Assembly (NCBI RefSeq): GCF_000152745.1
Contig: NZ_CH672428.1
Location: forward strand, 740,916 to 804,915
Reading direction: 5' to 3'
Length of the DNA: 64,000 nucleotides
DNA from: Oceanicaulis sp. HTCC2633
Lineage (GTDB): Bacteria; Pseudomonadota; Alphaproteobacteria; Caulobacterales; Maricaulaceae
Position 1 is the stretch's first letter, and every line of letters begins with the position of its first letter. Of the stretch, positions 34,322 to 51,570 are shown one piece after another. The notes under the pieces are model-generated. The model saw only the letters and a program-made list of their open reading frames with translations, had not been told where the DNA came from and searched no databases. A program made the position numbers and the translations under genes.

Positions 34322-34624
34322 CTATTCGTCTACAAAAGAAACTAATATTGGGATATCACCACCTCCAATATCATAAGAATTTAAACCGCATCTGGCTCTT
34401 GCTTGAATTTGCTCACCCCCCGTATATATGACACTACCCTCAAAGCTCTCAATATTGGATACTATTGATTCAACCTCCACAGAATTAAATGTATCTTTTG
34501 AGAAGCCAAATTTTTGAATAGTGTATATGCAATAGTCTTCACCATTAAGACGAGAAACCGCACTGCCATTGCCACATGATGCAGTGAATACAAGCAGGAC
34601 AAAAATCCAAAAGCCTTTAATCAT
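34322..34624 (-). CDS. Small putative lipoprotein, candidate immunity protein to the RHS tip
   Basis: 100 residues starting MIKGFWIFVLLVFTASCGNG, a good lipoprotein signal with cysteine at 17. The rest is a small soluble domain without recognised family. The start codon comes 1 bp after the RHS stop, so translation is coupled. The DNA is far more AT-rich than the neighbourhood: 34321-34380 has 19 G/C of 60, against 34 of 60 at 36001-36060 in the RHS core. Position, size, coupling and composition are those of an immunity gene for an exchangeable toxin tip; an envelope location would suit a periplasm-acting toxin. The function is inferred. Confidence 0.6.
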   Translation of the reverse strand: MIKGFWIFVLLVFTASCGNGSAVSRLNGEDYCIYTIQKFGFSKDTFNSVEVESIVSNIESFEGSVIYTGGEQIQARARCGLNSYDIGGGDIPILVSFVDE

Positions 34625-34625
34625 T

Positions 34626-37600
34626 TTAGTACTCCGGACTTAGTGTAGGTATTGTACCGTTCAGGACTTCACGCGGGATACCTCGATAGGGCGTAATACG
34701 ATACCACAAGACCTGATTAAGCCCTGCATCCATTTCAACATGCACCCTATAATTATTGTAGTTCTTGTTATCAATCCAAATACTACCTGGAGTCTCAAAA
34801 CCAACATATCGCCTACTTCTAAAGGTCCCTATTTTCTCCCCCATCACGACCCTAGAGACTGAAAGATTAAAGGTTACTGTTGTATCAGGCAAGAACTGGT
34901 CAGCAAGAAATGTTTCAACACTTCGACGCTCCAACATTTCAGCGGCTTCATCAACATTTCGAATAAGCACTCGCCCGTAGGCTGCGGCCCCTCGAATATC
35001 CACAGCGTCCCCATAAGGCCAGACAGTAACCATCATACCTGAAACGTCAGCGGGCATCTCGAAGCTCGCAGCACGGGCGCTAATTTGGGATGACACACCT
35101 TGAATTGTAGGAAGTGAACGCGCCGATGCCTCTGGATCACTATGACCCCTTTGATCAGATAAGCTGCCCAGATTCAATTTTCCGCTGCAATTCGCGCCTT
35201 CCCGATTGTCTCCATTCTCATCCTTGATCCGTGTTCCGCACAAGCCGCTTGAGTCTCGCAGGTTCACCGGATCATTGCCCACATAGGCGTAGAGATTCAT
35301 CTGGTCGGCATAGCCGATGGGATCGGTCTGCAGAAAGCGCCCCAACTCCGGATCGTAATACCGCGCCTTGTAGTAATAGAGCCCGGTTTCCGGATCGAGT
35401 TTCTGCCCCGTAAACCGGAACGGGAAGCCGCCATCGCCCTCGCCCGCCTGGCCGAAGGGGGAGTAGGTGTGCGTGTCGATCACCGCGCCCGCACTATCGC
35501 TGATCACAATCGTGGAGCCCAGACGGTTGGGATGCGCCCAGCGTTCGCGGTCGCCCGCAGGCAGGCTCTGATCGATCATCAGGACCGCTTCATCGACCGA
35601 GCCTGGCAGGCGCACATAGCGCCGGAGCAGGGTCGCGCCGTCATATTCGGCGATCTCCTGATTGGCGGCGAACTCAGTGTCCCCGGCGTCGAGATAGCCG
35701 AGGCCGCCCATATAATAGAACTGGCTGGTCAGATTGCCGGGCGCGATCTTCTCTGCCCGCGTGCCGTCCGCGTAATAGCGGTAATCGGTCGTGCCCGTGC
35801 CCGAGACCGTCGCCGTACGCAGCACATTCTCGGCGTCGAAGACATAAGACCGGCCCCGCCCATCCGAGGTGAGATTGCCATTGCCGTCATAGCTGAGCGT
35901 CGTCCCCGCGACAGTCGTGTACTGGTTCAGGCCGTTTACGGCGTAATTATCATTGGCCGAGAAGGACGGTCGCCAGACCAGATCCTCACCGCTGAGCGTG
36001 CTCACAAGGCTTTCACTGAGGATCTGCCCCACGCCGTTCGACGTGAAGTCATAGGCGATCTCCGCCCCCGCGCCAGTACACGCCGAGGCCGCAGCGCCGC
36101 TCAGATTGATGTCATGACAGCGGATATCCCCGCGCGCGGAATAGCCAAACAGCGCCGTTGAACCATTGGCGTAGCTGACGCTCTGCCGGCGCGACTGGGC
36201 GTCATAGGCGATACTGGCGAGGCGCCGCCCCGCAGACGCGCAGGGATCGTTAAAATTCGCCGCGCCCTCTTCGGCGCAGACCACCCGGTTCAGCGCGTCA
36301 TAGCCATAGGCCACCCGGCTGGCGTCAGGATAGGTGAGCTCAACAAGATTGTTCGCCACGTCATAGGCGTAAGACACCGCAAGCCCGTTCTGATGGGTTT
36401 GGGATGTGATCCGCCCGAACGTGTCGTACTGATAGCCCAGCGTCAGCCCGTCATGCACCGCCGTTGTGCGCAAGCCCATCGGATGGGCATAGGCATAGGA
36501 ATGGGTGACGGTGCGGCCGTTGGCCGAGTGGGTCGGCGCGCCGGGGACATGCCGGTCCAGAAGCTGACCCAGGGCGTTATAGTTGTAATCGATCACATCG
36601 CCACGACGGGTGCGCTTGCTGGCCATGAAATCAAGCCCGTCATAGCCATAGGCCTCGTAATCAGAGCTGGACCAGGTGCCCGGCGTCGTCGGCGAGGGGA
36701 AGTTCACCTGCGTCAGGCGGTCATGGGCGTCATAGGCGTATTTGGTGACATTGCCGCCCGCATCCATGATCGTGTCGATCTGGCCGGTGGAGGTGTAGGT
36801 GGTGTGGCTGTAGCACACCTGTTGCTGGCCCTGGGCGGCGAGCGTTCGCATCTGGGCGCAGTCAAGCGTTGAGCCCGTGCCATTATCATTGCCCGCCCAG
36901 GCCTGAATGACTGTCTCGATCTGATTGAGGGCGGTGTAGACTTGGCGCGTGCGGCGCCCTTCGCCATCCTGGGTGACGATGGGCCGGTCCAGCGCATCAT
37001 ACCAGGTGTAGCTGGTGTGATTGTCAGGGTCGCGCACCGAGTAAAGACGCTGGCGCGCATCATAGGTATAATCCGTGCTGGCGATCACGGTGGCGCCCAC
37101 CAGCTGCTCGGTCAGATCCAGCAGGCCGTGACTGTTATAGGTGTGGCGCACATCCGCCCCGAGGGGCGCATCAATAAAGACCGGCGCAGCGGCGTAGGAG
37201 CCATCGGCTTGCAGTGCGCCGTCATCCGGCCCGCCAAAGCCCAGATAGGTCGTTGTGGTGACATTACCGCGCGGATCCGTGACCCGGCGACGATTGCCCG
37301 ACAGATAGGCGGTCGTGACGCTGGAATAAGGCTGGACGCTGGCGTCAAAACCGTTGGCCGTGAGACGCGCGGCGATGACGCGGCCCAGGCCATCATATTC
37401 GGTCAGCGTGCCGACAATCGCGGTGGATGCGCTGTTTGACGGCAGGGATTCAAACGTCACCCGATTCAGCGCGTCATAGGTGCGCCGGCTGATGCGGGTC
37501 TGCCCCGTGCTGGTGTCGGAGATTTCGTCCTGCACCGGACGGAGGAAACCATCATACCGGATGACCGTCTGAAGATCGCCGCGCGTGATGGTCTGAACCA

Positions 37601-39785
37601 GCCCCTGGCTCGCGCCCGGCACATAACTGATCGTGGTCGGAGCGGAATACTGGCCGGAGACATTGGGCGGGGTGACCCCGCTAAGCCAACCGGTCGCGGT
37701 ATAACTGTAGCTCGTCGTGAAGCCATTGGCATTGGTGCGCGTGCTGACCCAACCATTATCGTCAATCGTCTGGGTGAGAACCACGCCATCAGGCCGGGTG
37801 ATCGTCTCGGCCTGACCGCGCCGCCAGTCATCCAGACTGACCTGCTGGTTCAGCGCATCGCGCACCCAGGCGAGCGCGCCTTGCTGGCCGCTCGTCGTGT
37901 GATAGCCGAAGGTGGCGTAAAGCGAACCGTAACGGTCCTCGCGCGTAACACGGCCGAGCGCATCATAAGTGAAATCCTTCCACAGGATCCCGTTGCGCGT
38001 CACGGTGTCCGTGAGACCCAGAATCCAGTGGTTGAGATTGTGGGCGTAAGTGGTGGCGATGATCCGGGAGCCCGATTGAACAGAGCTCGACCGGGTGACG
38101 CTCACCGGGTTGCCGAAACTGTAGTTCGAGGCGGTTTGCGTCGTGTTGAACGCTCGCAGCGTGGTGTAGGAATCCCCGTCCTGGGACAGGACCTCGGTCG
38201 TGACATGGCGCGGACGGTCGAACTTCGCGGCGTTCTCGTTGAGCAAGAGCTGGGAGCCCAGCGAAGCCTCTGCAGTCATCGTGTAGTCCACGGAGCGGAC
38301 CAGCACGCCGTCAGCATAGGTTTCCGTGCGTGACAGCATGCCTTCAAACAGGCCGCCGCGGTGATAATGCGTGCGCAAACGCTCACCCGTCGGCAGCGTC
38401 ACCTCGCCCCATTTCGTGGCCGGAATCGCCCCTGAGGTATAACCCGAATAGGCATAGGTCCACGTGACGGGACTGGCGCCGCGATCGCTCAGGCTGCGTG
38501 AGATCAGCGACATGTGGTCGTAATAGGGTTTGTCATCGGCCAGATGATCGGAAATGCAGCTCGCGGTCATGCTGTCATTGATCACATCCCCTTTCAGATG
38601 ACGGGTTTCACGGAAGGTGAAACTGCCTGTCACGCCATCGGGATGGGTGACCGAGATGGTGTAATCGGGCGCTGCGCAATCATGTTCCGAGCGCGCGCCT
38701 GATCCGAATGCGTTCATGCTGAACGACCAGGACCGGTTATCGGGCAGCGTGACCGTTTCAAGCAGGGAGCGCCCGTTCACCAGCGTATAATCGTACACCC
38801 AGTCCCGACCGTTGACGCTGACGGTGGTTACAAGACCGTCCGAGCGTCGGGTGAGCGTGATCTCGCGTCCGTCATTGGAATGAATCCGCGTCAGGCGGTT
38901 CTGGGCGTCATACTGGTAGCGCACCCAGTTGCCGTTCACATCGGTGACCTCGGTGGCCAGCAACACGGCATCCACCCGGCCAAGCGCGCTGCTCTTCTCA
39001 CCCTGGGTGACGGGAATGGCCGTCTGCGGCGCCCAGTCAAACAGATCAAAACGGTATTGGTCGCCATTGGGCGCGTGGGCGATCATGCCGCTTTGCGCGC
39101 CTGTGGCTGTGGCGCACTCGAACCACCAGAAATCGCGTGTCACCGCGACGGCTCCGCTGGGCCAGCTCACCCCGGAAGGAGAGGCCAGCAAGCGCTGGGA
39201 CCCGCGACCCGGCACGGTCATCGTCATGCCATTGGAGATCTGGTACCCCTCGAAGAAGGGGTCCTCGAGCGACGGCGCATCGCCCGGAAATGTGTAGAAC
39301 GCGCCTGCAGGCAGCGGCAACGCACACATGTCCGGCCCTGTGCTGGCGGCGGTATAATGGCGCGACAACTCGGTCAGCTCGATTCTGGGCAGCTCGAGAG
39401 TCCAGTCCGAGAAATCGTTCGAGATCGTTCCGCCAAAGGTCAGCGCATCAAGGTGAGGAAACGGGAAATCCTGGCCCCTTGATCGACGCAAGGCGACCTC
39501 GAGCCCGGAGTTCCCGGGTATTGAAACATCCACATGTTCAAAGCTGACCGACCCGGTGTTCAGATCAACGCTATCCCCCAACAGACCATCTGAATGCATC
39601 TGGAGGCGGTCTTCAACATTGGCCCGCTTGATATGCTCGACCGCAATCGTGGCGGGCGGCGCCTCCTCCTCTCCGCCGCCCTGCGCCTGAGCGTTGGACG
39701 CGCCCAATGCGCAAGCGGCGAGCACGCACGCCAGGGTGCTGACACAAGATTGAAGCATGGACTGTTCCAGTATTCTGATCCGCAT
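34626..39785 (-). CDS. RHS/YD-repeat protein with variable C-terminal tip, probable secreted effector
   Basis: 1719 residues. The N-terminal export signal has hydrophobic residues 11-34; both an LAAC lipobox (Cys25) and an AQA cleavage site are possible. Many YD repeats follow (for example YQYDAQNRLTRIHSNDGREI and YDALNRVTFESLPS), forming the RHS shell. The RHS core ends with FTGQKLDPETGLYYYKARYY, RFLQTDPIGYADQMNLYAYV and GNDPVNLRDSSGL. About 204 residues after this form an unrelated tip coded by AT-richer DNA. ATG 39785 has GGGGG upstream. It lies 12 bp after the Ig-repeat gene, downstream of the T2SS operon. Toxicity and T2SS export are inferred. Confidence 0.88.
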   Translation of the reverse strand: MRIRILEQSMLQSCVSTLACVLAACALGASNAQAQGGGEEEAPPATIAVEHIKRANVEDRLQMHSDGLLGDSVDLNTGSVSFEHVDVSIPGNSGLEVALRRSRGQDFPFPHLDALTFGGTISNDFSDWTLELPRIELTELSRHYTAASTGPDMCALPLPAGAFYTFPGDAPSLEDPFFEGYQISNGMTMTVPGRGSQRLLASPSGVSWPSGAVAVTRDFWWFECATATGAQSGMIAHAPNGDQYRFDLFDWAPQTAIPVTQGEKSSALGRVDAVLLATEVTDVNGNWVRYQYDAQNRLTRIHSNDGREITLTRRSDGLVTTVSVNGRDWVYDYTLVNGRSLLETVTLPDNRSWSFSMNAFGSGARSEHDCAAPDYTISVTHPDGVTGSFTFRETRHLKGDVINDSMTASCISDHLADDKPYYDHMSLISRSLSDRGASPVTWTYAYSGYTSGAIPATKWGEVTLPTGERLRTHYHRGGLFEGMLSRTETYADGVLVRSVDYTMTAEASLGSQLLLNENAAKFDRPRHVTTEVLSQDGDSYTTLRAFNTTQTASNYSFGNPVSVTRSSSVQSGSRIIATTYAHNLNHWILGLTDTVTRNGILWKDFTYDALGRVTREDRYGSLYATFGYHTTSGQQGALAWVRDALNQQVSLDDWRRGQAETITRPDGVVLTQTIDDNGWVSTRTNANGFTTSYSYTATGWLSGVTPPNVSGQYSAPTTISYVPGASQGLVQTITRGDLQTVIRYDGFLRPVQDEISDTSTGQTRISRRTYDALNRVTFESLPSNSASTAIVGTLTEYDGLGRVIAARLTANGFDASVQPYSSVTTAYLSGNRRRVTDPRGNVTTTTYLGFGGPDDGALQADGSYAAAPVFIDAPLGADVRHTYNSHGLLDLTEQLVGATVIASTDYTYDARQRLYSVRDPDNHTSYTWYDALDRPIVTQDGEGRRTRQVYTALNQIETVIQAWAGNDNGTGSTLDCAQMRTLAAQGQQQVCYSHTTYTSTGQIDTIMDAGGNVTKYAYDAHDRLTQVNFPSPTTPGTWSSSDYEAYGYDGLDFMASKRTRRGDVIDYNYNALGQLLDRHVPGAPTHSANGRTVTHSYAYAHPMGLRTTAVHDGLTLGYQYDTFGRITSQTHQNGLAVSYAYDVANNLVELTYPDASRVAYGYDALNRVVCAEEGAANFNDPCASAGRRLASIAYDAQSRRQSVSYANGSTALFGYSARGDIRCHDINLSGAAASACTGAGAEIAYDFTSNGVGQILSESLVSTLSGEDLVWRPSFSANDNYAVNGLNQYTTVAGTTLSYDGNGNLTSDGRGRSYVFDAENVLRTATVSGTGTTDYRYYADGTRAEKIAPGNLTSQFYYMGGLGYLDAGDTEFAANQEIAEYDGATLLRRYVRLPGSVDEAVLMIDQSLPAGDRERWAHPNRLGSTIVISDSAGAVIDTHTYSPFGQAGEGDGGFPFRFTGQKLDPETGLYYYKARYYDPELGRFLQTDPIGYADQMNLYAYVGNDPVNLRDSSGLCGTRIKDENGDNREGANCSGKLNLGSLSDQRGHSDPEASARSLPTIQGVSSQISARAASFEMPADVSGMMVTVWPYGDAVDIRGAAAYGRVLIRNVDEAAEMLERRSVETFLADQFLPDTTVTFNLSVSRVVMGEKIGTFRSRRYVGFETPGSIWIDNKNYNNYRVHVEMDAGLNQVLWYRITPYRGIPREVLNGTIPTLSPEY
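34629..35240 (-). other. C-terminal tip domain of the RHS protein (candidate toxin)
   Basis: About 204 residues following the conserved DSSGL end of the RHS core. It contains MMVTVWPYGDAVDIRG, SVETFLADQFLPDTT and VHVEMDAGLNQVLWYRITPY. I recognise no catalytic motif or named toxin family. The coding DNA becomes AT-rich within this stretch and stays so through the following small lipoprotein gene. Confidence 0.55.
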
Positions 39786-39797
39786 GACCGCCCCCGG

Positions 39798-42665
39798 TTA
39801 GAAGCCTGGCAGGCAGATAAATCCGCCGCAGCCACCTGTTACATTCACGGTCACGGTCGCCGTATCTGTACCGCCTTGCCCGTCACTGATGGTGTAGTTG
39901 AAAGTGTATGAGCCAGCCTGCTGCGGTGCGAAGTAACTCACCGCTTTCTGGTCCGGCATCACCTGGGCGCTCGCCCCTCCGCTCACAGCGCTAACGCCTG
40001 TCACCAAGAGATCATCATCATTGAGATCGGTATCGTTGCTGAGAACAGGCAACACCAGGATCTCACCCGCGGTCATGGAATATGTGTCATTGACCGCGTT
40101 CGGGGCCTGGTTCGGCGGTGCGCTCGTGGTCACAGTCACGGTCGACGTATCGCTGCCCCCGCGACCATCAGACACCGTATAGGTAAAGGTCGAGCTCGCG
40201 GGACCCATCGGCGCGACAAATCGCGCCTGGTTGCCATTCCTGCTCACAGAACCCCCACCCGAAACGCTTGACACGCTTGCAAGCGAGAGGCTGTCGCCAT
40301 CCGGATCGCTGTCATTGCCCAGAACGCTGAAGTTCGTCGTAGAGCCGGACGCCACCGTATAGCTGTTATCGACGGCTATAGGCGCCTGGTTCGGCGGTGC
40401 GCTCGTGGTCACAGTCACGGTCGCCGTATCGCTGCCCCCGCGACCATCAGACACCGTATAGGTGAAGGTCGAGCTCGCGGGCCCCGTCGGCGCGACAAAT
40501 CGCGCCTGGTTGCCATTCCTGCTCACAGAACCCCCACCCGAAACGCTTGACACGCTTGCAAGCGAGAGGCTGTCGCCATCCGGATCACTGTCATTGCCCA
40601 GAACGCTGAAGTTCGTCGTAGAGCCGGACGCCACCGTATAGCTGTTATCGACGGCTATAGGCGCCTGGTTCGGCGGTGCGCTCGTGGTCACAGTCACGGT
40701 CGCCGTATCGCTGCCCCCGCGACCATCAGACACCGTATAGGTGAAGGTCGAGCTCGCGGGCCCCGTCGGCGCGACAAATCGCGCCTGGTTGCCATTCCTG
40801 CTCACAGAACCCCCACCCGAAACGCTTGACACGCTTGCAAGCGAGAGGCTGTCGCCATCCGGATCACTGTCATTGCCCAGAACGCTGAAGTTCGTCGTAG
40901 AGCCGGACGCCACCGTATAGCTGTTATCGACGGCTATAGGCGCCTGGTTCGGCGGTGCGCTCGTGGTCACAGTCACGGTCGCCGTATCGCTGCCCCCGCG
41001 ACCATCAGACACCGTATAGGTAAAGGTCGAGCTCGCGGGCCCCGTCGGCGCGACAAATCGCGCCTGGTTGCCATTCCTGCTCACAGAACCCCCACCCGAA
41101 ACGCTTGACACGCTTGCAAGCGAGAGGCTGTCGCCATCCGGATCGCTGTCATTGCCCAGAACGCTGAAGTTCGTCGTAGAGCCGGACGCCACCGTATAGC
41201 TGTTATCGACGGCTATAGGCGCCTGGTTCGGCGGTGCGCTCGTGGTCACAGTCACGGTCGCCGTATCGCTGCCCCCGCGACCATCAGACACCGTATAGGT
41301 GAAGGTCGAGCTCGCGGGCCCCGTCGGCGCGACAAATCGCGCCTGGTTGCCATTCCTGCTCACAGAACCCCCACCCGAAACGCTTGACACGCTTGCAAGC
41401 GAGAGGCTGTCGCCATCCGGATCACTGTCATTGCCCAGAACGCTGAAGTTCGTCGTAGAGCCGGACGCCACCGTATAGCTGTTATCGAAGGCTATCGGCG
41501 CCTGGTTCGGCGGTGCGACCACGTTGATGTTGAAGCCACAATTCACCGTACCCCAACGTCCGTCATTAATTCGGCAGTTCAGGATCGCCTGCCCCGTGGA
41601 GGACGGGGCCTTGAGATGAATCGTCTGACCGTCCTGGCTGATCTCGGCTCGATCGAAAGCCAGCAAGAGCACGTACACATTTTCAAACTGCAGCTGATCC
41701 CCATCCGGATCAGACGCGCCGAGGTCCACCAAGGTCAGATCAAGTTCCTCACCGGGAGCCATTTCAATCGAAGGTGGCATTGGGGAGGTCAGAACAGGTT
41801 TGCGGTTGACCGTCAGGGTCAGCTGGGCCGCATCCTGCTGACCGGAAGCGTTTTCAACAGTGTAGCGGTACACCTCGGCTTGATAGGCTCCCGAGGTCGG
41901 ATAGCTCCCATTGTCTATGATGCGAACACGGTTGTTCACGACAGATGCCGTACTATTGCCAGATACTCGCTCAACCGAAATCAAGGTCAAACCCGTCCCG
42001 GCATCATTCGCCAGGACATCAAAGCTCTTGGTCTCGCCGACAACCATGAAACCCGTATCACCCGTCGCGAAATCGCCCGGTGTGGGATCTGGGTCAGGAC
42101 CGGGATCAGGGTCAGGATCGGGATCGGGATCGGGATCGGGATCGCCGCTTGTCTGAACCGTGAGTTGAACTTGGGCCTCATCTGTCAGGCCGAACGCATC
42201 CTCAATGCGATAAGAGAACCCATAGTTTCCGTTTACTCCAGGCGCCGTGATCCGAACCTGCCGACGATCATCTTGAAGCTGCACGCCTAGAGCGCCCGAG
42301 GAGGCGGCAGGCACAGAGCCCTGAGTGACAGAGACAATGCGGATGGGATCGCCATTGGGGTCATCATCTGCGCTTCCGCTCCCGTGAACGGCGAGCAAGT
42401 CAAAGAGCCCGGTCGCCCCAGGAGCAAGGACAATCGTGTCACTGGCAGCTACCGGAGGCTGATTGCCGGCGCAACTCCCATCGCCCGCAAGCACGATCCG
42501 CTCGGTGCGGTTCCCCGCAGCGTCATAGAAATACCGGATAGTGGAGCAATCGCTATAGCTTGCACGGATGAGCCGGCCTCGTTCGTCATATTGATAAGAT
42601 TGGGCGGCCGCATGAGAGGCGCAAACGACAAAAAGCGCCCATAAGGCAAGCGACCGAACAATCAT
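39798..42665 (-). CDS. Secreted Ig/cadherin-like repeat protein with N-terminal YD repeat
   Basis: About 955 residues from ATG 42663-42665, which has GAGGGGGA in front. The signal peptide MIVRSLALWALFVVCASHAAA is followed by two YD-type stretches (YQYDERGRLIRASY, IRYFYDAAGNRTERI), as in RHS proteins. A chain of Ig-like tandem-95/cadherin-type domains with DSDPDGDSLSL calcium-loop motifs comes next, including five almost identical 93-residue copies. A (DP)n linker lies near residue 185. It ends GGCGGFICLPGF with no membrane anchor or sorting signal. It probably acts as an extracellular adhesin or scaffold. It lies between the T2SS operon and the RHS gene on one strand. Confidence 0.85.
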   Translation of the reverse strand: MIVRSLALWALFVVCASHAAAQSYQYDERGRLIRASYSDCSTIRYFYDAAGNRTERIVLAGDGSCAGNQPPVAASDTIVLAPGATGLFDLLAVHGSGSADDDPNGDPIRIVSVTQGSVPAASSGALGVQLQDDRRQVRITAPGVNGNYGFSYRIEDAFGLTDEAQVQLTVQTSGDPDPDPDPDPDPDPGPDPDPTPGDFATGDTGFMVVGETKSFDVLANDAGTGLTLISVERVSGNSTASVVNNRVRIIDNGSYPTSGAYQAEVYRYTVENASGQQDAAQLTLTVNRKPVLTSPMPPSIEMAPGEELDLTLVDLGASDPDGDQLQFENVYVLLLAFDRAEISQDGQTIHLKAPSSTGQAILNCRINDGRWGTVNCGFNINVVAPPNQAPIAFDNSYTVASGSTTNFSVLGNDSDPDGDSLSLASVSSVSGGGSVSRNGNQARFVAPTGPASSTFTYTVSDGRGGSDTATVTVTTSAPPNQAPIAVDNSYTVASGSTTNFSVLGNDSDPDGDSLSLASVSSVSGGGSVSRNGNQARFVAPTGPASSTFTYTVSDGRGGSDTATVTVTTSAPPNQAPIAVDNSYTVASGSTTNFSVLGNDSDPDGDSLSLASVSSVSGGGSVSRNGNQARFVAPTGPASSTFTYTVSDGRGGSDTATVTVTTSAPPNQAPIAVDNSYTVASGSTTNFSVLGNDSDPDGDSLSLASVSSVSGGGSVSRNGNQARFVAPTGPASSTFTYTVSDGRGGSDTATVTVTTSAPPNQAPIAVDNSYTVASGSTTNFSVLGNDSDPDGDSLSLASVSSVSGGGSVSRNGNQARFVAPMGPASSTFTYTVSDGRGGSDTSTVTVTTSAPPNQAPNAVNDTYSMTAGEILVLPVLSNDTDLNDDDLLVTGVSAVSGGASAQVMPDQKAVSYFAPQQAGSYTFNYTISDGQGGTDTATVTVNVTGGCGGFICLPGF
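40103..41497 (-). repeat. Five tandem 279-bp repeats inside the Ig-like gene
   Basis: Units begin at 40103, 40382, 40661, 40940 and 41219, each exactly 279 bp (93 codons) and nearly identical at DNA level; the outer units carry a few substitutions. The near identity implies recent expansion or gene conversion and predicts copy-number variation between strains. Confidence 0.95.
42085..42150 (-). repeat. Hexanucleotide repeat coding for an Asp-Pro linker
   Basis: A run of GGATCG/GGGTCA-type hexamers (plus-strand view) encodes alternating Asp-Pro with two Gly substitutions. Length changes in multiples of 6 bp would keep the frame and alter only linker length. Confidence 0.8.
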
Positions 42666-43268: not shown

Positions 43269-43780
43269 TCCGCCCCCTCCCGGTCAACGAGAACCACGAA
43301 CTCCGCAACAAGCGCGAGCGTATCTTCCGGGCGACGCAAACCTATGACCTCGACAGAGAGCGACCGGACTTGAACAGGCTGCAGGTCTTCACTGAGACGG
43401 TTGAGCGCCTCATCCAGGTCAATGAGATCACCTCGCCCCTCTACGCGAACAACAGCCCAGCTAAAGCCGCTCTCTTCAGTCTCAATCTGCGAAGCGTATC
43501 GCGCTCCCTCAAAGCCCTCAAAAGCTCGCCTTACGCCTTGGTCTAGTCGGGAAAGGACAAACGACGGGTCCCCCGAGACAGACGCAAACTCAATATCGCG
43601 CACTTCAGGAAAGCGTCTCGCCAGCTCTGAGGATTGGTCTTTTAGGCGTTCCAGCCTGTCTTTCTGCGACTGTACGGAGGCAAACCGGTCGAACAGCGTG
43701 GAAGCGGGTTGTAGAAAAACGAAAACGAACAGCGTTAGCAGTATCAAACCAGCAGCGGCTTTGGAGACAGATGGGGTCAT
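43265..43780 (-). CDS. GspM-like T2SS inner-membrane protein
   Basis: 171 residues with an N-terminal membrane span (about 9-27), a coiled-coil stretch (VQSQKDRLERLKDQSSELAR) and a periplasmic ferredoxin-like domain, the GspM/PilO-type layout. GspM stabilises GspL in the assembly platform. The ATG overlaps the gspL-like stop and its own stop overlaps the gspC-like start (both ATGA). Sequence similarity is weak, as usual in this family; the order L-M is the main support. Confidence 0.75.
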   Translation of the reverse strand: MTPSVSKAAAGLILLTLFVFVFLQPASTLFDRFASVQSQKDRLERLKDQSSELARRFPEVRDIEFASVSGDPSFVLSRLDQGVRRAFEGFEGARYASQIETEESGFSWAVVRVEGRGDLIDLDEALNRLSEDLQPVQVRSLSVEVIGLRRPEDTLALVAEFVVLVDREGAE

Positions 43781-44697
43781 TCCGACGCCTCCTCAGAGAG
43801 ACGTTGAAACTGCAGCCCGGCGCTCTCGGCGCTGCCTGTGACCTCAGTGGAGCGCCACCAGCCCCCGATCTGAACATCAACGCTTTCGGGCGCCTCCTCG
43901 CGAAACACCATTCCCAAATGGTCTGGGGACCAGGTCAGACTTCTCAGAGCGGCAGCCGGGGGAAGGTCTTGCATGATCGCGGTCAAATCAGACCGAAGGG
44001 TCGAAATCGAGCTATAGTCCAAACCCGCCCCGAGGGCGCTATTCAGCTCAGCCTGGGATAAAGCGTCCCGTAACTCCACAAGGTGAGTTCGGGCTTTAGC
44101 TTCACGCTGGGTCAAGAGGTCGCTTTCACGCTCAAGCGCGCTGTTCCAGCTGACCAGGGCCAGCCAGAGGGCGCCCGTAAGAGCCGCCCAGCTCCCGTAA
44201 CTCAGCCCCAGTTGGCGAATATGGCGTTTATAACCGGCCTCGCTCAGGACCTTTAGTTCCGGTTCGCTCTCAAGCGCAAAACTGACCGAGCGAGCGCCCC
44301 CTTTCAGAAGCTCCTCGGTCCAGGCCTGAAGATCGGAATTGCGGAACGCGACAATGGCATAACGGGCGCTCTCTTCCTTTTGCTCTGGAGTTTCTCCCAT
44401 CACCACAGTCAGCTGACGGGGCGGAAGCGGCAACAGGGAGTCCAGCTTAAGCGCCAAGCCCCGCTTGTGCTGATCGGCTTCGCCCTGCGGCAAGGTCATG
44501 CGAGTGCGAAAACCAAGATGATCTGGCATCAGGCAGAGAACATCCCGCCCCTGAACGGACACCTGATGGCGTTCACGCCAGCCTATGCGTTGTTGTGCCG
44601 GCTCCAGAAGCGCACGGACTTCCCGAAGCCACCACCGCAAGGCCCGTTCATGGAAGCTGACTTTGGCGTAGGGGGTGGGCTGATACTCAAATCTCAT
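43777..44697 (-). CDS. GspL-like T2SS assembly-platform protein
   Basis: About 306 residues from ATG 44695-44697 (MRFEYQPTPYAK), which overlaps the gspJ-like stop as ATGA; a GTG at 44706 is the alternative. A cytosolic N-terminal part of about 155 residues is followed by one membrane span (ALTGALWLALVSW), a helical linker and a small periplasmic domain. GspL recruits the GspE ATPase to the membrane. It is shorter than typical GspL (about 400), so the cytosolic actin-like part is reduced. The family call rests on topology and operon position. Confidence 0.72.
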   Translation of the reverse strand: MRFEYQPTPYAKVSFHERALRWWLREVRALLEPAQQRIGWRERHQVSVQGRDVLCLMPDHLGFRTRMTLPQGEADQHKRGLALKLDSLLPLPPRQLTVVMGETPEQKEESARYAIVAFRNSDLQAWTEELLKGGARSVSFALESEPELKVLSEAGYKRHIRQLGLSYGSWAALTGALWLALVSWNSALERESDLLTQREAKARTHLVELRDALSQAELNSALGAGLDYSSISTLRSDLTAIMQDLPPAAALRSLTWSPDHLGMVFREEAPESVDVQIGGWWRSTEVTGSAESAGLQFQRLSEEASE

Positions 44698-45188
44698 CAG
44701 CGACACCGTTTCGCGACGCTGTCATAGCGGCAGTTGAAAGGAATCTCTCGCGTCCTTGGAAAAGCGATAAGCAGCTGATTGTTCTGAGCGGATGCAAGCG
44801 TCATGACATGATCGTTAAAGCTCCAGTCCGCCGCAACGATCTGAACAAGATCGCGTTCAAGACTGACGCCATTATGCGTCAGGCTTAGTGAGGCGGCGCC
44901 CTCCGGCTGAAGCGCGACCTGGAGCACTGAGTAATCCCCTCTTCGCAGTTCAAGCGCGTCAGGAGCCAAGCTCCCGGCATCGCTATCTGCTGCTTCCAAA
45001 AGGCTCAGGAACCGGTCAAGGCTGCGATACTCACGCAAGGTTTCGACTGAGCCCGTTACGCGGTGATAGGCGCGCGCGGTAAGCGACAGAAGCTGACCGA
45101 CCGAGACGATCAAAGTGCTGGCCACAGCCAGCGCCACAAGCATTTCCGTAAGCGTGAAACCTGCCTGGTTTTGGTCAGTCTTCTTCAT
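44697..45188 (-). CDS. GspJ-like minor pseudopilin
   Basis: 163 residues from ATG 45186-45188. A type IV pilin-like signal is cut after Gly10: QAG|FTLTEMLVALAVASTLIVSV, with Glu at mature position 5. The C-terminal part is a globular beta-rich domain. The start overlaps the gspI-like stop by 14 bp. As third of the small pseudopilins it would join the I-J-K tip complex. GspH is the alternative assignment. Confidence 0.75.
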   Translation of the reverse strand: MKKTDQNQAGFTLTEMLVALAVASTLIVSVGQLLSLTARAYHRVTGSVETLREYRSLDRFLSLLEAADSDAGSLAPDALELRRGDYSVLQVALQPEGAASLSLTHNGVSLERDLVQIVAADWSFNDHVMTLASAQNNQLLIAFPRTREIPFNCRYDSVAKRCR

Positions 45189-45558
45189 CTTCAAACCCCC
45201 GACGATACCCGACCAGGGAGACGCTCCTGATGTCCTGCCCCACACGCCATGGGACTTCGATGCGGACCTCAAAGACATCATCGCCAATCGCCAGAGGCGA
45301 AATAGTGCGCGTCCAGACCAGACCGTCCTCACCATAGGGGCCTTCCGTCGCCAGCTCCGCCGGGTCGCCGGTTCGCGCGCTCCAAAACAGCGTCTCCGCC
45401 ATCTGGAGCGCAAAGAAACGCTCTTGCGCTTCGGTGCTGGCGCGAACAGCCGTTCGCACGCCCGCCAGGACGCCGACTGCCGCGGTGGCGACCACGACAA
45501 ACGCGACAACGGTCTCGACCAGAGAAAACCCGTCTTCTTTCGATGGCTGTGTTCTCAT
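45175..45558 (-). CDS. GspI-like minor pseudopilin
   Basis: 127 residues from ATG 45556-45558, which overlaps the gspF stop as ATGA; the longer upstream frame is rejected. Prepilin signal EDG|FSLVETVVAFVVVAT has Glu at mature position 5, followed by a small domain with VWTRTISPLAIGDDVFEVRI. The size and place between F and J fit GspI, which initiates the pseudopilus tip. Confidence 0.76.
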   Translation of the reverse strand: MRTQPSKEDGFSLVETVVAFVVVATAAVGVLAGVRTAVRASTEAQERFFALQMAETLFWSARTGDPAELATEGPYGEDGLVWTRTISPLAIGDDVFEVRIEVPWRVGQDIRSVSLVGYRRGFEDEED

Positions 45559-46757
45559 CAGATCACCCCATCGCCAATACTCGCGAGCCCGCCCAGGAAG
45601 CTGGTCATCACCCACGCAAGAAATCCGCCCATAGCCACGATCAGCGCTGGTCCTGCTGCCGCAGCCAGGCGGTCGAGACGTCGAAGCGCACGCCCCAACA
45701 TGATTTCGCTGGCGCGCACGACCATGGGCCCGAGCGTGCCCGTCTCTTCGCCGACCATCGCGAGGTGGCTGATTTCATGGGGCGCGTCTTTGACCGCCAT
45801 CAGGGCTCCCGCCATGCTGGCGCCATCGCGCAGCGCCTCGCCGCAGACCTCAAGTTTCTTGCGCCAATATGCGTTGGCCACGGTCGCGCGCGCGAGATCC
45901 ACAGCTTTCGCCGCCGGCGTTCCCCCTGCGAGCAACGCGCCTAGCGTCTGGGCGAAAGCGCCGATATTGAGGTCCCTGACAACACCTTTGACCAAGGGGA
46001 TACGCGCCCGCAGGACCGCCAGCGCAAACTTGACCGCCGGTCTTTGGAACACCCAGACAAGACCCGCGCTGACAGCGATGAGCGCCAGAACGACAACGAC
46101 CGCCTGCTCACGCACAAAAGCCCCGAAGCCCAGCACCATGCGCAAGCCATCTGCCTTGCCGTTGGTCGTCTCGGCCAATAACGGCTCCAGAGCCGGGCCT
46201 GCGACGAGAGACAAGGCGATCACGGCAAAAAGCGAGAGCACAAGCAGGAAGCTCGGATAGGCCATCGCGGATCGCAGGCGTTTGACGAATTCCGCCTGAC
46301 TGCGCAGCACTTTCGCGCCTGCCCTCAGGGTCAACTCAAGCTCACCTGACAGCTCACCAGCCTTGGCGAGCTCGGCGGCGAGCTGGATATCATTCGCGTC
46401 GTCCACACGGGCGGCTGCGCTCAATTCAGCCCCGGCGTCCAGACGATCCGCCATGAGGCGCGCCAGCCTTGCAACTCGCGGCGTCACCGCCTCACCGGAC
46501 AAGACATCGAGCGCTCGGCGCAAAGGCACGCCGGCCTTATGAAGCGCGGCGAGATCATCCATGAAGTCCGCAAGCTCCAAGCGGCCGGGACGCGCGGAAT
46601 CCAGAAAGCGCAGCAAGCCTCTAGCATCCGCAATCCGAACCGCGAGCTCGCCGCGGCCTTCGAGAATGCGCGCGGCGTCCTCTGGAGATGCGGCTTCAAC
46701 GAGCCCTTTGCGGGCCTGTCCCGAGCGTGTCAGAGCGCTATAGCGATATCGGGTCAT
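45558..46757 (-). CDS. gspF: T2SS inner-membrane platform protein GspF
   Basis: 399 residues with the usual GspF/PilC pattern: two cytosolic helical domains, each followed by membrane spans (about 170-190, 220-235 and 370-390). The N-terminal YRYSALTRSGQARKGLVEA is the family opening, and GEETGTLGPMV near residue 340 corresponds to the conserved GE.SG..G motif. It couples GspE ATP hydrolysis to pseudopilus growth. Its ATG overlaps the gspE stop by 4 bp. Confidence 0.93.
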   Translation of the reverse strand: MTRYRYSALTRSGQARKGLVEAASPEDAARILEGRGELAVRIADARGLLRFLDSARPGRLELADFMDDLAALHKAGVPLRRALDVLSGEAVTPRVARLARLMADRLDAGAELSAAARVDDANDIQLAAELAKAGELSGELELTLRAGAKVLRSQAEFVKRLRSAMAYPSFLLVLSLFAVIALSLVAGPALEPLLAETTNGKADGLRMVLGFGAFVREQAVVVVLALIAVSAGLVWVFQRPAVKFALAVLRARIPLVKGVVRDLNIGAFAQTLGALLAGGTPAAKAVDLARATVANAYWRKKLEVCGEALRDGASMAGALMAVKDAPHEISHLAMVGEETGTLGPMVVRASEIMLGRALRRLDRLAAAAGPALIVAMGGFLAWVMTSFLGGLASIGDGVI

Positions 46758-48412
46758 GAGCTCAGAACCCGCATCAGTTCAGTCGGCGACGTCTGCCCCG
46801 TCCTGACCTTCAGCACGCCATCCTCTATGAGGGAGTTCGGCATCAACCGCTTGGCGTGGGCCGAGAGATCTTCGTGTTGCCTGATCGATTGGGCGAAGTC
46901 CTCATTGGCCTGAAAGGCTTCCGCAATCACGATTCGCCCTTGATAGCCGGTCTCAGAGCAATAGGCGCAGCCCTTGCCCTCGAACACCGCCTCCCCTGCT
47001 TCGAGCCCCAGAGCTGCGGCCTCGCTTGCTGTGGCCTGACTCTCGGTCTTGCACTCCGGGCAAAGCCGTCTGACCAGACGCTGGGCGACAACGCCCCGCA
47101 GACAGGCCGACAACTGAAACGCCTCAACGCCCATATCAAGAAGGCGCGGCACTGCCCTGCTCGCATCGATCGTGTGAAGCGTCGCGAGCACCAGATGCCC
47201 TGTCAGTGCAGCCTGGATGGCCGTCGCTGCGGTCTCGCCATCGCGAATTTCTCCCACCAGAATGACGTCCGGATCCTGCCGCAAGAAAGCACGAATAGCC
47301 GAGGCGAACGTCACTCCTGCTTTCGGGGCGGTCTGGACCTGTGTGACGTGCTCGAAATGGAACTCCACCGGATCCTCGACCGTGATGATCTTGCGATCAT
47401 CCCTGTGCAGCGCCTCAAGGGCGGCGTAGAGGGTGGTCGTCTTTCCCGACCCGGTTGGGCCGGTCACAAGAAACAGGCCATGCGGCCATTCAATTGCGCC
47501 GTTCAGCAGATCAAGCTGACGTGGCGAAAAGCCGAGCTTGTTAAAATCGAGCTCGACCCCGCCCCGGTCCAGGATCCGCATCACGGCCGCTTCACCATGA
47601 ACGGACGGCACAATGGAGACGCGGATATCAATAGGCCGTCCCGCAACGACGACCGTCGTCCTGCCATCCTGTGGCGCGCGACGCTCACCTAGATCAAGAT
47701 CCGCAAGGACCTTCACACGCGCCATGACGGCATTGGCGGCTTCCAGGCGTTCCATAGCGACCGTGTGGAGCACGCCATCAATGCGATAACGCACGGTCAG
47801 CGCATTGGGTCTGGGTTCAATATGAACGTCTGACGCTCGCGCTTCGACAGCGCGCATCAACCAGTCTGCGACGCGGCGCGCGACCGGGGCGTCGCGATCA
47901 AACTCAAGGGCATTCCTCAGCGCATCATCTGCGCGGTCGCTGTTCTCCAGCTGCCACCCCTCGCCGCCCTCTTCAAAGAGCTGGCTGTGAAGACGTCGCT
48001 GATCGCCCGCTTTTAGAACCCCGATCCGCATCTCGCGGCCCAAAGCAAAACGCAAACCGGAAATCGCTGCGTCATCGAGCGGATCAACAAGCCCGATCTC
48101 GGCCCAGTCTTCATCACAATCGAGGAGCAAAGCGCGTCGCGCGCGCAGAAAAGCTTTGGAAACCCGCCGCTCCTCTACCAGCGCCAATGCACTCTCACTC
48201 ACCTGTGGCTTGGCCAGAGGCAATCCTGTGAGCGTTGAGAATGCCGACTGGAGCTCACCGTCATCAAGCGCGCCGAGCCTGTTGAGCACCAAAGGTCTGG
48301 GCTCGCCGCGCGTCGCCATGGCCTTTGCGACCATATCTTCGGATATAGCACTTACCAGACCGCGCTCGCTCAGCCAGCTGCAAACCGCATCGTATGTAAG
48401 GTGATCACCCAT
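46754..48412 (-). CDS. gspE: T2SS ATPase GspE
   Basis: Cytosolic hexameric secretion ATPase, 552 residues. An N-terminal N1E-like domain leads to the Walker A motif GPTGSGKTTTLY at 318-329, the Asp box IITVEDPVEF, Walker B DVILVGEIRDGETA and the His box TGHLVLATLHTIDA. The tetracysteine zinc site CPEC (451-454) and CAYC (482-485) marks it as GspE rather than a PilB variant or PilT. It lies 24 bp after gspG and overlaps gspF. All catalytic motifs are intact. Confidence 0.96.
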   Translation of the reverse strand: MGDHLTYDAVCSWLSERGLVSAISEDMVAKAMATRGEPRPLVLNRLGALDDGELQSAFSTLTGLPLAKPQVSESALALVEERRVSKAFLRARRALLLDCDEDWAEIGLVDPLDDAAISGLRFALGREMRIGVLKAGDQRRLHSQLFEEGGEGWQLENSDRADDALRNALEFDRDAPVARRVADWLMRAVEARASDVHIEPRPNALTVRYRIDGVLHTVAMERLEAANAVMARVKVLADLDLGERRAPQDGRTTVVVAGRPIDIRVSIVPSVHGEAAVMRILDRGGVELDFNKLGFSPRQLDLLNGAIEWPHGLFLVTGPTGSGKTTTLYAALEALHRDDRKIITVEDPVEFHFEHVTQVQTAPKAGVTFASAIRAFLRQDPDVILVGEIRDGETAATAIQAALTGHLVLATLHTIDASRAVPRLLDMGVEAFQLSACLRGVVAQRLVRRLCPECKTESQATASEAAALGLEAGEAVFEGKGCAYCSETGYQGRIVIAEAFQANEDFAQSIRQHEDLSAHAKRLMPNSLIEDGVLKVRTGQTSPTELMRVLSS

Positions 48413-48436
48413 GGGCGGAGCCCATCCGCCCCGCCA

Positions 48437-48883
48437 TCAAGGATAGCTGATGTCTGTCGCCCGGCCTTCTCCGCCGGCAGCGCCGTCGGCGCCGTAGGAC
48501 ACAATAGACGGCGGAACGTTGTCAGAGTCAGAGGGCACAATGACATAAGGATTGCCCCACGGGTCATTGAGTGTGCGCTCAGAGCGGACATAAGGGCCGC
48601 TCCAGCCCTCGATATCAGACGGCGCCGTAAGAAGCGCTTCAATTCCCTCTTCCACAGTGGGGTAGCGGCCAACATCCACAAAAAACTCATCCATCGCAGC
48701 TGCAAGCGTTCCGGCTTGAAGGGCTGCTGAACGCTCCTGGCTCGTATTAAAACGGCCTAGTACAGCGGGCGTGATCGCAGCCGCCAGAATGCCCAGCACC
48801 GCAATGACGATGACCAGTTCGGTCAGTGTGTACCCAGCCTCTTTCGACGGTTTCGCTTCTTGCCGTGTCTCTTGAATGCTCAT
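48437..48883 (-). CDS. gspG: Major pseudopilin GspG
   Basis: 148 residues with prepilin signal KEAG|YTLTELVIVIAVLGI, Glu at mature position 5. The globular part has the GspG features AMDEFFVDVGRYPTVEEGIEAL and LNDPWGNPYVI. It would polymerise into the piston-like pseudopilus. It needs cleavage by a prepilin peptidase, which is not encoded in this island. It lies 12 bp after the gspK-like gene. Confidence 0.94.
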   Translation of the reverse strand: MSIQETRQEAKPSKEAGYTLTELVIVIAVLGILAAAITPAVLGRFNTSQERSAALQAGTLAAAMDEFFVDVGRYPTVEEGIEALLTAPSDIEGWSGPYVRSERTLNDPWGNPYVIVPSDSDNVPPSIVSYGADGAAGGEGRATDISYP

Positions 48884-48895
48884 CCCTCACCCCTC

Positions 48896-49597
48896 CTATC
48901 CGCAAGCGTTTAATTGCCCGCGATCAATCAAGCGCCAATCCATCATCCGCGACGGATCAAAGCGGTCCCCAGTCATCAACAGAACCATGTCCGCCATCTG
49001 ATCCTGCCCCTGCTCCACAGCCAGGAGCCTGATCCGCGTACCCGGCGTCGGCCTGTCAAACACGCCCTCGCGATCAACCCCTTCGCCGAATCTGCGGCGA
49101 CCGCCGAACACAGTGAAACCAGCCCTCAGACATTCTGTGACACGGGCATCTTCAAATGACAAATCCCCAATCAGGCGTATTGGCGTCCCGCTCTCACGGG
49201 CCGTTTCGACCTGACTCATCAGTGCCTGGACATGAGAAGTGTGGCTCAGCAGGTCTTGAGCCTGGGTCTCGATCATGTCGAGCTCGGCGTAATTGAGATC
49301 GAGCTTCTCGCTCTCCCACTCAAGCGACACATCAAAACTCACGCCCTCAATCGACAGCGTCTGCCGGGCATCATCAAAGCGCAAAGTCCGTGCGTCGGGC
49401 TCCTTGGTTAGCTCTGCGGCTGTTAGGACAGCCACGGATTCATAGAGCAGCATCATCTGGACACGCTCTTCTTCCGCACGGACTCGGCGAAGCTCCCCGA
49501 CTGCGATCATCAAAATACCTGTCGCAAGCGCCCCCAGTATGATCATAGAAATGGTCGCGCTGGCGAGGATATATCCGTCTTCGCCTGACCGGCTCAT
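48896..49597 (-). CDS. GspK-like minor pseudopilin
   Basis: 233 residues with prepilin-like N-terminus GEDG|YILASATISMIILGAL. The mature residue 5 is Ser, not Glu. Lack of Glu5 is characteristic of GspK, which caps the pseudopilus tip. The stretch EKLDLNYAELDMIETQ recalls the GspK segment after the pilin helix. It is shorter than usual GspK (about 300). Its ATG overlaps the gspD stop (ATGA). The position between D and G is unusual; K normally follows J. Confidence 0.68.
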   Translation of the reverse strand: MSRSGEDGYILASATISMIILGALATGILMIAVGELRRVRAEEERVQMMLLYESVAVLTAAELTKEPDARTLRFDDARQTLSIEGVSFDVSLEWESEKLDLNYAELDMIETQAQDLLSHTSHVQALMSQVETARESGTPIRLIGDLSFEDARVTECLRAGFTVFGGRRRFGEGVDREGVFDRPTPGTRIRLLAVEQGQDQMADMVLLMTGDRFDPSRMMDWRLIDRGQLNACG

Positions 49598-51570
49598 TGG
49601 AACTCTTCAAGTCGGAGGCGCAGACGCTCAAGGGCGGCCGGCAAAGCCAGCCAGACATCCGAGGGTTGGCTCGGATCCGTGATAACAGTCGGCTTGAGCA
49701 GAATGACCAACTCTGTGCGATCAACGCTCTCGCTGTCGGATCCGAAGACGCGGCCAACAACCGGAAGCTCCCGCAGAACTGGCACCCCGCGCTCATTGGT
49801 CGTGCGTGTGGTCGCAATCAGACCGCCCAGCGCCACCGACTGCCCTGACGGCACGAGGAGTGTCGACGTGATCCGGCGCTGGCGAATGGTGGGCGAGTCG
49901 ATCCCAGAACTGCTGGTCTGCACCACAGACGAGACTTCCTGAGTGATGTCGATCTCGACAATCCCGCCAGCACGTACATGGGGCGTCACGCTCAGAATGA
50001 CGCCGGTATCGCGATAGGCGGTCTGATTGACAATAGGCGCGTCCGGATTGGTCACAGAGACGGCGCTCTGGGTGATGACCGGCACCTGGTCGCCCACTTG
50101 CAACTCGGCTTGCTGGTTATGCAGCGCCATCACATTCGGCCGAGAGATGACCTCGATCTCCGTGACTGCGTCGAGCATGTTCAGCGTCGCTTCAATATCT
50201 GTGTTGAGATAGGTCGCGGAGAAACCGGGAAAGACAGACGCGGCGGTCCCGTCTGCATTGTCGGCGAAACGCACGTCAATCTGCTCGCTGGGTGCCGCGC
50301 CCCAGTTCACGCCAAACCGAAACTCATCCTGCAGGCTGACCGAGATGATCGCCGCTTCAATCGAGACTTGCGCTCGCGGCTGATCCAGCAGCTCCACAAG
50401 GTCGCGCACTTCAGAAATGCGTGCCTCTGGACCGCGCGCAATGATCTTGTTTTGGCTCGGCACGGCGCTGATCTGCAGGCGGTCCTCGTCATTGTAGGAC
50501 TGGGAAGAGCTCTGGCTCGAACGTGAGGCTGAGCCCGTGTTCACGCCTGAAGCATTTCCACCATAGACCCCGCCATACTGCCCGTATCCCAACAGCTCCC
50601 GAACCGCCGAGACAAGCTCCTCAGGGTCGGCATGACGGACCGTATACACAAGCTGGCGCGGATTACTGGACGCGCGGCGCGGCTGATCAAGTTCCCGAAC
50701 CCAGCGCTCGACCAGAGCGATGCCATTAGGTCTTGCCGAAAGCACCGCGAGAGCGCTGATCCTGTCCAACGCAATCAGTTCAATCGTTGATGCGTACGGC
50801 CCGAGTAGCGGTTCAATGTCCTGGATCAGGTCAGACGGCGCCGTTGACTGAAGCGGGATGAGACTTGTCGAAATCTCATCAAGCCAGTCCACATCCATCA
50901 GAGCTAGCGCTTCCGATGCGGCGGTGAGCGCCGCAGCTTCCCCTCTGACGACAATCACTTGCCTTTGATCATCAGCCAATACGACCTGAGCGCCTGTTCC
51001 AAGGGCGTTCAAAAGCGTCTCCACATCAGAGGGATGGGCCTGCTCCAAACTCAGCATGGCAACGCCGGCCCCGGCCGGCGCGGCCTGCCCTGGCGTCAGA
51101 ATGACAGAAGCCCCTTGTTGCTGACCTCCGCCTCTGACCACGGCGATAAAGTCGCCTCGATCAATCAATGAGATCGATAGAGGGGCCAATACATCGCGGA
51201 GATTCTGCAACGCATCGCCGCGGGTCGCAACATCCTGCATGCGCAAGGTCACTTGGCCCTGAACGTCCGGCGCGATCGTAAAGTCAGTCTGTAGATGCTC
51301 ACCCAACACCTGATTGATCACGGTGGCGATGTCGGCATTTCGATACACAAGGGAAAACGGACCGCCCGGCAAGGTATCTGCGCCCCCCACCCCCGCCTGA
51401 TCAAATGGTTTGAAGAATTCTCCGCGGCCAATCTCATGCACAGGCGCCTCATGCTGTGGCACCGGCTCATCCCCGACGGCTTGTTGGACCTGCGCGGAGG
51501 CGAATTCAACCCACAGGCACGCCATCAGACACACCGCTCCGACAACGGCAATTTCGCCAAGCTTCGACAT
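49594..51570 (-). CDS. gspD: T2SS secretin GspD
   Basis: Outer-membrane secretion channel, 658 residues. A signal peptide (cleavage near FASA-Q, residue 26) is followed by an N0-like domain (about 70-145), N1-N3 modules separated by a Ser/Gly-rich loop (GGVYGGNASGVNTGSASRSS), and the C-terminal secretin domain with VISRPNVMALHNQQAELQVG and QSVALGGLIATTRTTNERGV. It is the first gene of the T2SS operon, 145 bp after the alpA-like gene on the same strand. No pilotin gene is seen. Confidence 0.95.
   Translation of the reverse strand: MSKLGEIAVVGAVCLMACLWVEFASAQVQQAVGDEPVPQHEAPVHEIGRGEFFKPFDQAGVGGADTLPGGPFSLVYRNADIATVINQVLGEHLQTDFTIAPDVQGQVTLRMQDVATRGDALQNLRDVLAPLSISLIDRGDFIAVVRGGGQQQGASVILTPGQAAPAGAGVAMLSLEQAHPSDVETLLNALGTGAQVVLADDQRQVIVVRGEAAALTAASEALALMDVDWLDEISTSLIPLQSTAPSDLIQDIEPLLGPYASTIELIALDRISALAVLSARPNGIALVERWVRELDQPRRASSNPRQLVYTVRHADPEELVSAVRELLGYGQYGGVYGGNASGVNTGSASRSSQSSSQSYNDEDRLQISAVPSQNKIIARGPEARISEVRDLVELLDQPRAQVSIEAAIISVSLQDEFRFGVNWGAAPSEQIDVRFADNADGTAASVFPGFSATYLNTDIEATLNMLDAVTEIEVISRPNVMALHNQQAELQVGDQVPVITQSAVSVTNPDAPIVNQTAYRDTGVILSVTPHVRAGGIVEIDITQEVSSVVQTSSSGIDSPTIRQRRITSTLLVPSGQSVALGGLIATTRTTNERGVPVLRELPVVGRVFGSDSESVDRTELVILLKPTVITDPSQPSDVWLALPAALERLRLRLEEFQ

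Follow-up and report, generated by a model that had tools for sequence, protein, structure and literature searches.

The locus considered here, in Oceanicaulis sp. HTCC2633, raises the question of how RHS proteins carrying a Sec signal could cross the outer membrane in bacteria lacking a type VI secretion system (T6SS). It was studied in a window of 64,000 nucleotides (contig NZ_CH672428.1, positions 740,916 to 804,915 of the forward strand), the window being the whole stretch of DNA analysed. Sec-signal RHS toxins are widely annotated, and a branch of type II secretion systems (T2SS) tied to RHS genes, as reported here, makes their outer-membrane crossing route in T6SS-free bacteria directly testable. 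A preliminary description of this DNA, made from its letters alone, had proposed that a compact T2SS of ten overlapping genes is coupled to an RHS cassette on a mobile, tRNA-bounded island. The coupling is borne out: RHS genes lie beside relatives of this T2SS well above chance, and 19 of the 22 readable contexts in its clade hold an RHS gene or a partner gene bearing YD repeats (hereafter, YD partner). Thus, the operon probably encodes an exporter dedicated to RHS polymorphic toxins.

The T2SS-type operon is compact and runs on the minus strand from position 51570 to 42813, with ten genes in the order D-K-G-E-F-I-J-L-M-C; most of them overlap, and where neighbours do not, at most 24 bp separate them.

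49594-51570, minus strand: GspD secretin (PF00263, Secretin, 147 bits; PF03958, three times; PF21305, the N0 domain, 29.2 with the cut-off at 27)
48896-49597, minus strand: GspK-like protein (position flanked by D and G, size, start resembling that of a prepilin)
48437-48883, minus strand: GspG major pseudopilin (TIGR01710, 104.9, passing the cut-off of 88.85)
46754-48412, minus strand: GspE ATPase (PF00437, 422 bits; MshEN; best NCBIfam model TIGR02533)
45558-46757, minus strand: GspF (PF00482, 113 bits; best NCBIfam model TIGR02120)
45175-45615, minus strand: GspI-like minor pseudopilin (TIGR01707 as best match, below cut-off; start uncertain)
44697-45209, minus strand: GspJ-like minor pseudopilin (N_methyl; prepilin domain above cut-off; start uncertain)
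43777-44706, minus strand: GspL (AlphaFold model resembling PilM and GspL/EpsL folds)
43265-43780, minus strand: GspM-like protein (weak match to NF040576, E 2.4e-5, below cut-off)
42813-43268, minus strand: GspC-like protein (very weak match to NF041515, E 0.0022; its profile touches PilP at E 0.62)

The ten T2SS genes claimed beforehand can therefore be retained with graded assurance: D, E, F and G are clear by profile, L by fold, I and J carry prepilin signatures with weak family matches, M and C are weak, and K is named from its place, size and start. The model of the L-like protein, of moderate quality (mean predicted local distance difference test score, pLDDT, 66.5), is similar in fold to PilM and to GspL/EpsL in their cytoplasmic domains. 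When alignments of the K-, L-, M- and C-like proteins were compared with PDB profiles, no T2SS match was found at a useful E-value and only L was rescued by its fold; the GspK-like open reading frame (ORF) had no family match in Pfam, NCBIfam or PDB profile searches. No separate ORF for GspH was recognised in the operon with Pfam and NCBIfam profiles, and the three matches to a prepilin peptidase (GspO) in the genome all fall outside the island described below. Two further GspE-type genes of comparable size occur at genome positions 2499149 (in a D-E-F operon) and 1581909, together with two more distant ATPases.

Because GspD (336.5 against 351.35), GspE (511.7 against 630.25) and GspF (178.9 against 424) all score under their NCBIfam equivalog cut-offs, which serve naming, the window machine is, by these profiles, a divergent T2SS-type branch and not a typical member. 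The same low scores, the likeness of the L-like protein to PilM and the missing H would also suit a short type IV pilus-like surface fibre that displays the RHS or YD partner protein and is not an exporter. Such a fibre is highly improbable, taking into account that the best NCBIfam models for D, E, F and G are still T2SS ones, that GspG passes its cut-off and that a GspD-type N0 domain is present.

The operon is followed on the same strand by three genes, with gaps of 132 bp (C to the first gene), 12 bp (first gene to the RHS gene) and 1 bp (RHS gene to the lipoprotein gene).

39798-42665, minus strand: YD partner with immunoglobulin-like (Ig) repeats, or YD/Ig partner (Sec signal, one YD pair, Big_9/tandem-95 repeats; Pfam Big_9, and RHS_repeat at amino acids 31-61)
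34626-39785, minus strand: RHS protein of 1719 amino acids (Sec signal; TIGR03696, 93.5 bits against 32.5; PF05593)
34322-34624, minus strand: lipoprotein of 100 amino acids (lipobox seen by eye)

These correspond to the secreted Ig-like repeat protein, the signal-bearing RHS protein and the small lipoprotein announced in the preliminary description. Its reading of the first as an Ig-like protein with a signal holds, with the correction that one YD pair also stands right after the signal peptide. This ORF extends to 42680 if a TTG start is used. Between positions 40080 and 41495 the gene contains a 300-nt stretch five times, at a spacing of 279 nt and at least 95% alike, and the number of Ig repeats may vary.

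The RHS gene holds the sole Rhs core of the 3.17-Mb genome. In its product, the core (amino acids 1441-1515) is followed by a C-terminal domain of about 200 residues, a putative toxin, and a PDB profile search returned RHS/Tc shells as relatives. Among the marks of an RHS polymorphic toxin, the Rhs core is present in the window protein and a known C-terminal toxin fold is not. The lipoprotein, which matched no family among the Pfam, NCBIfam and PADLOC profiles, is probably an immunity protein, judging by its place and lipobox. Next to it lies a further trace of the RHS gene, which fits RHS tip exchange, as expected:

33978-34242, minus strand: RHS gene remnant of 265 bp (91% identical to 35938-36202 in the intact RHS gene)

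Whether this arrangement recurs was addressed by searching the window GspD in 398 genomes of the order, which gave 90 matches in 79 genomes at E <=1e-45. The search for gspD and RHS genes within 20 kb of each other, as proposed beforehand, found an Rhs core over its cut-off near 19 of the 90 accessory gspD genes, against 1.19 expected by random placement in the same genomes; in this count Rhs matches under the family cut-off are excluded, except for a single row at 31.4 bits (34.8 including its neighbours), and contig ends are ignored. The T2SS-RHS link exceeds chance. An earlier count, likewise without Rhs matches under the cut-off and without regard to contig ends, had given 18/39 loci against 0.59 expected; it includes three loci from outside the 90 matches (G074, G116 and G121), two of which (G074 and G121) were partly chosen for an Rhs core on the contig. 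The figure to be used is 19/90, drawn from all 90 gspD matches alone. In Ponticaulis koreensis DSM 19734 (L170/G324), which carries such a locus, two RHS genes stand next to the T2SS.

A tree of 93 GspD sequences places the window protein in a branch of 25 rows (support of 95 in the Shimodaira-Hasegawa-like approximate likelihood-ratio test, SH-aLRT), of which 16 have an RHS gene, three a YD partner only, three lie on short contigs and three have neither. An RHS gene or YD partner is therefore found in 19/22 readable contexts within this clade against 6/62 outside it; the six outside rows have an RHS gene, and five of them fall in one neighbouring branch. The Fisher value of this contrast is about 6e-11, and the same without G116 and G121 (18/21 in the clade against 5/61 outside). 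Since kinship among the rows makes this value too small, the tree itself is preferred as evidence. The counts from this tree draw on the 90-match set plus G116 and G121, leave out nine short-contig rows, use six hand-set labels and place the canonical GspD of the window genome, whose sequence is partial and whose branch is long, among the rows without RHS; the YD partner was sought over about 20 kb for 51/90 matches and up to 40 kb for most others. A GspE tree of 40 rows, with hand-set labels, likewise groups 15 RHS rows, two YD-only rows and three unlabelled rows with the window, and none labelled as lacking both; one of the unlabelled rows (G186b) proved to be free of RHS. Both trees are quick searches with SH-aLRT support only. 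The preliminary idea was to be abandoned if homologous operons regularly occurred without RHS or Ig genes. This is not so in the window clade, where 3/22 contexts lack both RHS gene and YD partner, whereas outside it 56/62 do.

Among the wider relatives listed, 23 of 80 named ones have an RHS gene or YD partner within at most 10 kb on each side, nine of which had already been counted. The additional linked relatives include members of Brevundimonas, Asticcacaulis, Caulobacter, Aquibium, Hoeflea, Phyllobacterium, Mesorhizobium (two), Nitrospirillum, Defluviicoccus and Sphingomonadales, reaching, among the matches listed, into other alphaproteobacterial orders. Because 57/80 of the relatives listed show neither gene (many of them on short contigs, and many from Hyphomicrobiales), the link is not universal in the wider T2SS kind.

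Accessory T2SS with other neighbours were also seen. One type, present in G169, G382, G273, G165 and G249 (stretches L042, L053, L059, L062 and L067), stands beside an ORF of about 1900 amino acids, without RHS, as a second pairing of a T2SS with a possible cargo. In G071 and G075 (L051/L052 and L074/L075) the T2SS operons have ORFs of about 2700 and 1040 amino acids on either side, again without RHS.

The partner of the RHS protein recurs as well. Homologues of the N-terminus of the window partner stand beside other RHS-linked T2SS and define a secreted protein whose mature part opens with a single YD pair (YxYDxxGRL...YxYDxxGNR); in the smallest cases it ends after about 45 residues, the largest continue into Ig-like repeats, and the ORFs span 70-1511 amino acids. 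One of two partner matches in G297 departs from this, its YD pair lying close to the ORF end. The YD partner was found in 20/26 linked loci, the window included, but three of these are linked by the partner alone, so that the fair figure is 17/23 RHS-bearing loci. Those three (G229, G246 and G116), in which the partner stands at the T2SS locus without RHS, could indicate that the T2SS mainly serves the YD/Ig protein as an adhesin, or other surface proteins, and that the RHS protein leaves the cell by another route; T2SS are known to put adhesins and lipoproteins on the surface, as the parts consulted of two reports indicate (PMC9245377, PMC12802150). However, all three genomes carry Rhs cores elsewhere, the stretches from G229 and G116 stop at contig ends, the window clade has 16 RHS-bearing against three YD-only loci, and at six RHS-linked loci no YD partner was recognised. 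A system serving chiefly an adhesin is thus considered unlikely.

In 32 linked RHS proteins the C-termini diverge once past the conserved core, with a mean column identity of 13%; single ones match Tox-GHH, Ntox24, a ribonuclease, HNH, HINT or an M15 peptidase, and most, the window protein included, have no known toxin match. According to a crude hydrophobicity rule, 16/21 complete linked RHS proteins have a Sec-like start. By the same rule, which also counts inner hydrophobic stretches, 19/31 of the genes downstream of linked RHS genes have a hydrophobic or lipoprotein-like start and 12 do not, and for three RHS genes no downstream ORF was found. The notion of a periplasmic immunity protein at every locus was dropped on account of these 12 genes.

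The T6SS sheath gene (VipB) is absent from 25/26 genomes with linked loci, that of the window included, only G246 having one. In the window RHS protein no PAAR domain was matched at E 0.01 in Pfam; neither this domain nor the sheath gene, as marks of a T6SS-dependent Rhs effector, was thus found.

The window set is carried by an integrase-bearing island of 25.7 kb, which extends from 27368 to 53076 at a tRNA-Gly gene.

27368-27383: attL, 16 bp matching the 3' end of the tRNA-Gly gene (identical to 53061-53076, in direct orientation; adjoins the integrase)
27509-27532: 24-bp repeat, left end (exact copy at 52982-53005)
27547-28767, plus strand: tyrosine integrase (Pfam Arm-DNA-bind_3, Phage_int_M, Phage_integrase)
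28774-29697, plus strand: shorter second integrase-like ORF, directly after the integrase (Pfam Phage_int_M, Phage_integrase)
30119-33932, plus strand: two overlapping ORFs of 778 and 516 amino acids, inside the island, next to the integrases
51716-51970, minus strand: AlpA-type regulator (PF05930, 59.5 bits)
52029-52916, plus strand: protein of 295 amino acids with a marginal TraY-like match (PF05509, E 0.0015, below cut-off)
52982-53005: 24-bp repeat, right end (copy of 27509-27532)
53061-53134, minus strand: tRNA-Gly (tcc), found by ARAGORN (its 3' end, 53061-53076, is attR)

These limits follow from the att repeats and from the contiguous flanks in congeners. In the same-genus genome G096 (L140) the site is empty, window positions 26016-27383 being joined to 53059-53255, the two overlapping by 18 bp at the end of the tRNA; another congener, G084 (L141), has the tRNA-Gly within about 100 bp after window positions 25326-26479. 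The integrase, the att repeats at the tRNA and the empty site together identify a tRNA-targeted island and support the mobility ascribed to the window copy. The tRNA-bounded island first proposed keeps its tRNA-Gly border, and the tRNA-Trp at 14514, taken for the other border, is rejected on the att repeats and the empty site. The 24-bp repeat is a possible integrase arm site. As for the 778- and 516-aa ORFs, which had no Pfam match at E 0.01, they are possibly an undescribed defence or regulatory pair; the larger gave a single weak PADLOC match (PD-Lambda-4_A, E 0.0081).

The island suggests another explanation, namely that T2SS and RHS genes are adjacent by hitch-hiking, both being often carried into the same integration hot spots. 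The window copy does lie on an integrase island, and recombinase, integrase or AlpA genes were recognised by Pfam near a few others (G076, G297, G008, G112 and G363). Nevertheless, the association tracks the T2SS lineage and not islands generally, one and the same small YD partner is found repeatedly, in genomes from several orders, and the window genes are contiguous, on one strand and with no mobile genes between them, all of which makes simple hitch-hiking decidedly unlikely. An island at every RHS-linked copy was also considered and dropped: the five copies just named are the only hand-checked ones with such genes, and several others show no island sign in the stretches examined. A phmmer comparison of the window integrases with the ORFs of the other 93 stretches gave zero matches, which says little, taking into account that the integrase recognised by Pfam in G076 was missed too.

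The best reading of the whole is that one T2SS branch in Alphaproteobacteria is specialised for RHS polymorphic toxins; its working can be outlined as follows. Sec would carry the RHS protein and its YD/Ig partner, both with signal peptides, to the periplasm, where the RHS protein, as in others of its family, would fold into a closed YD-repeat shell around the C-terminal toxin. The partner would dock on this shell, perhaps through its single YD pair, and act as a cap, a targeting tag or a surface adhesin. The T2SS would then export the RHS protein, the lipoprotein would protect the producer, and the likely use would be cell-to-cell killing. In the window, the whole set of T2SS, YD/Ig, RHS and lipoprotein genes travels together on the tRNA-Gly island.

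Several points weigh against this reading. Three members of the clade (G186b, G207 and G294) have no RHS gene even in wider flanks, the YD partner was not found in 6/23 RHS-bearing loci, and the order and strand of the RHS gene relative to the T2SS vary among loci. Most RHS proteins of the order sit away from an accessory T2SS, and therefore RHS proteins can do without one. In the window protein itself, the domain beyond the core has no known toxin match in Pfam or NCBIfam, a single-sequence AlphaFold model of this C-terminus is poor (pLDDT 41.6), and no secretion signal common to RHS protein and partner was identified. Immunity, to judge from the 19/31 hydrophobic or lipoprotein-like starts, is not uniformly periplasmic.

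In its most extended form, which we advance tentatively and at slightly less than even chances, the proposal is that this alphaproteobacterial T2SS branch, found mostly in T6SS-free bacteria, is a dedicated weapon exporting RHS shells, and that the small secreted YD-pair family, with or without Ig repeats, is a new cap or secretion tag. If so, T2SS would gain a role in bacterial antagonism, and the YD-pair partner would offer a handle on T2SS substrate recognition, described as poorly understood in the part consulted of one source (PMC7949064).

As regards known systems, the window machine shares with T2SS of the Gsp/Xcp/Out kind the N0 secretin, GspE/F, the GspG major pseudopilin, minor pseudopilins and the GspL fold. 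It differs in being compact and divergent, with D, E and F below the equivalog cut-offs, no recognised GspH and no prepilin peptidase of its own, and in having RHS and YD/Ig proteins instead of hydrolases as neighbouring cargo. The T2SS of Caulobacter crescentus and its neighbour gene elpS were already known, according to the part consulted of PMC2996285. T2SS had been regarded beforehand as chromosomal housekeeping exporters, which is not always so: in the sections consulted of its description, the Txc T2SS of Pseudomonas paraeruginosa lies on the genomic island RGP69 beside its dedicated substrate, the chitin-binding protein CbpE (PMC12369383). Txc is thus alike in being an extra, island-borne T2SS with a dedicated neighbouring substrate, and differs in its substrate and regulators, no RHS protein being described in those sections. 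As judged by titles and the beginnings of abstracts, no description of a T2SS-RHS coupling was found among the papers listed by full-text searches of open-licence PMC articles.

T6SS Rhs effectors and the BC shells of Tc toxins resemble the window protein in the RHS shell and core, as its PDB relatives indicate; the window protein differs from them in its Sec signal, its lack of a PAAR match and a genome without the sheath gene. Also close to it are the RHS toxins catalogued by Zhang in 2012, with a signal peptide, RHS repeats and a variable C-terminal toxin. Two further features shared with them, a transglutaminase-like but inactive N-terminus and Ig domains, are seen in linked relatives here (Transglut_core in G410). 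In the portion of that work consulted, "T2SS/Sec-dependent" denotes toxins with a signal peptide, in a table without signature neighbour genes (PMC3482391). That label rests on the signal peptide, whereas in the present locus the RHS gene is genetically coupled to a real Gsp operon.

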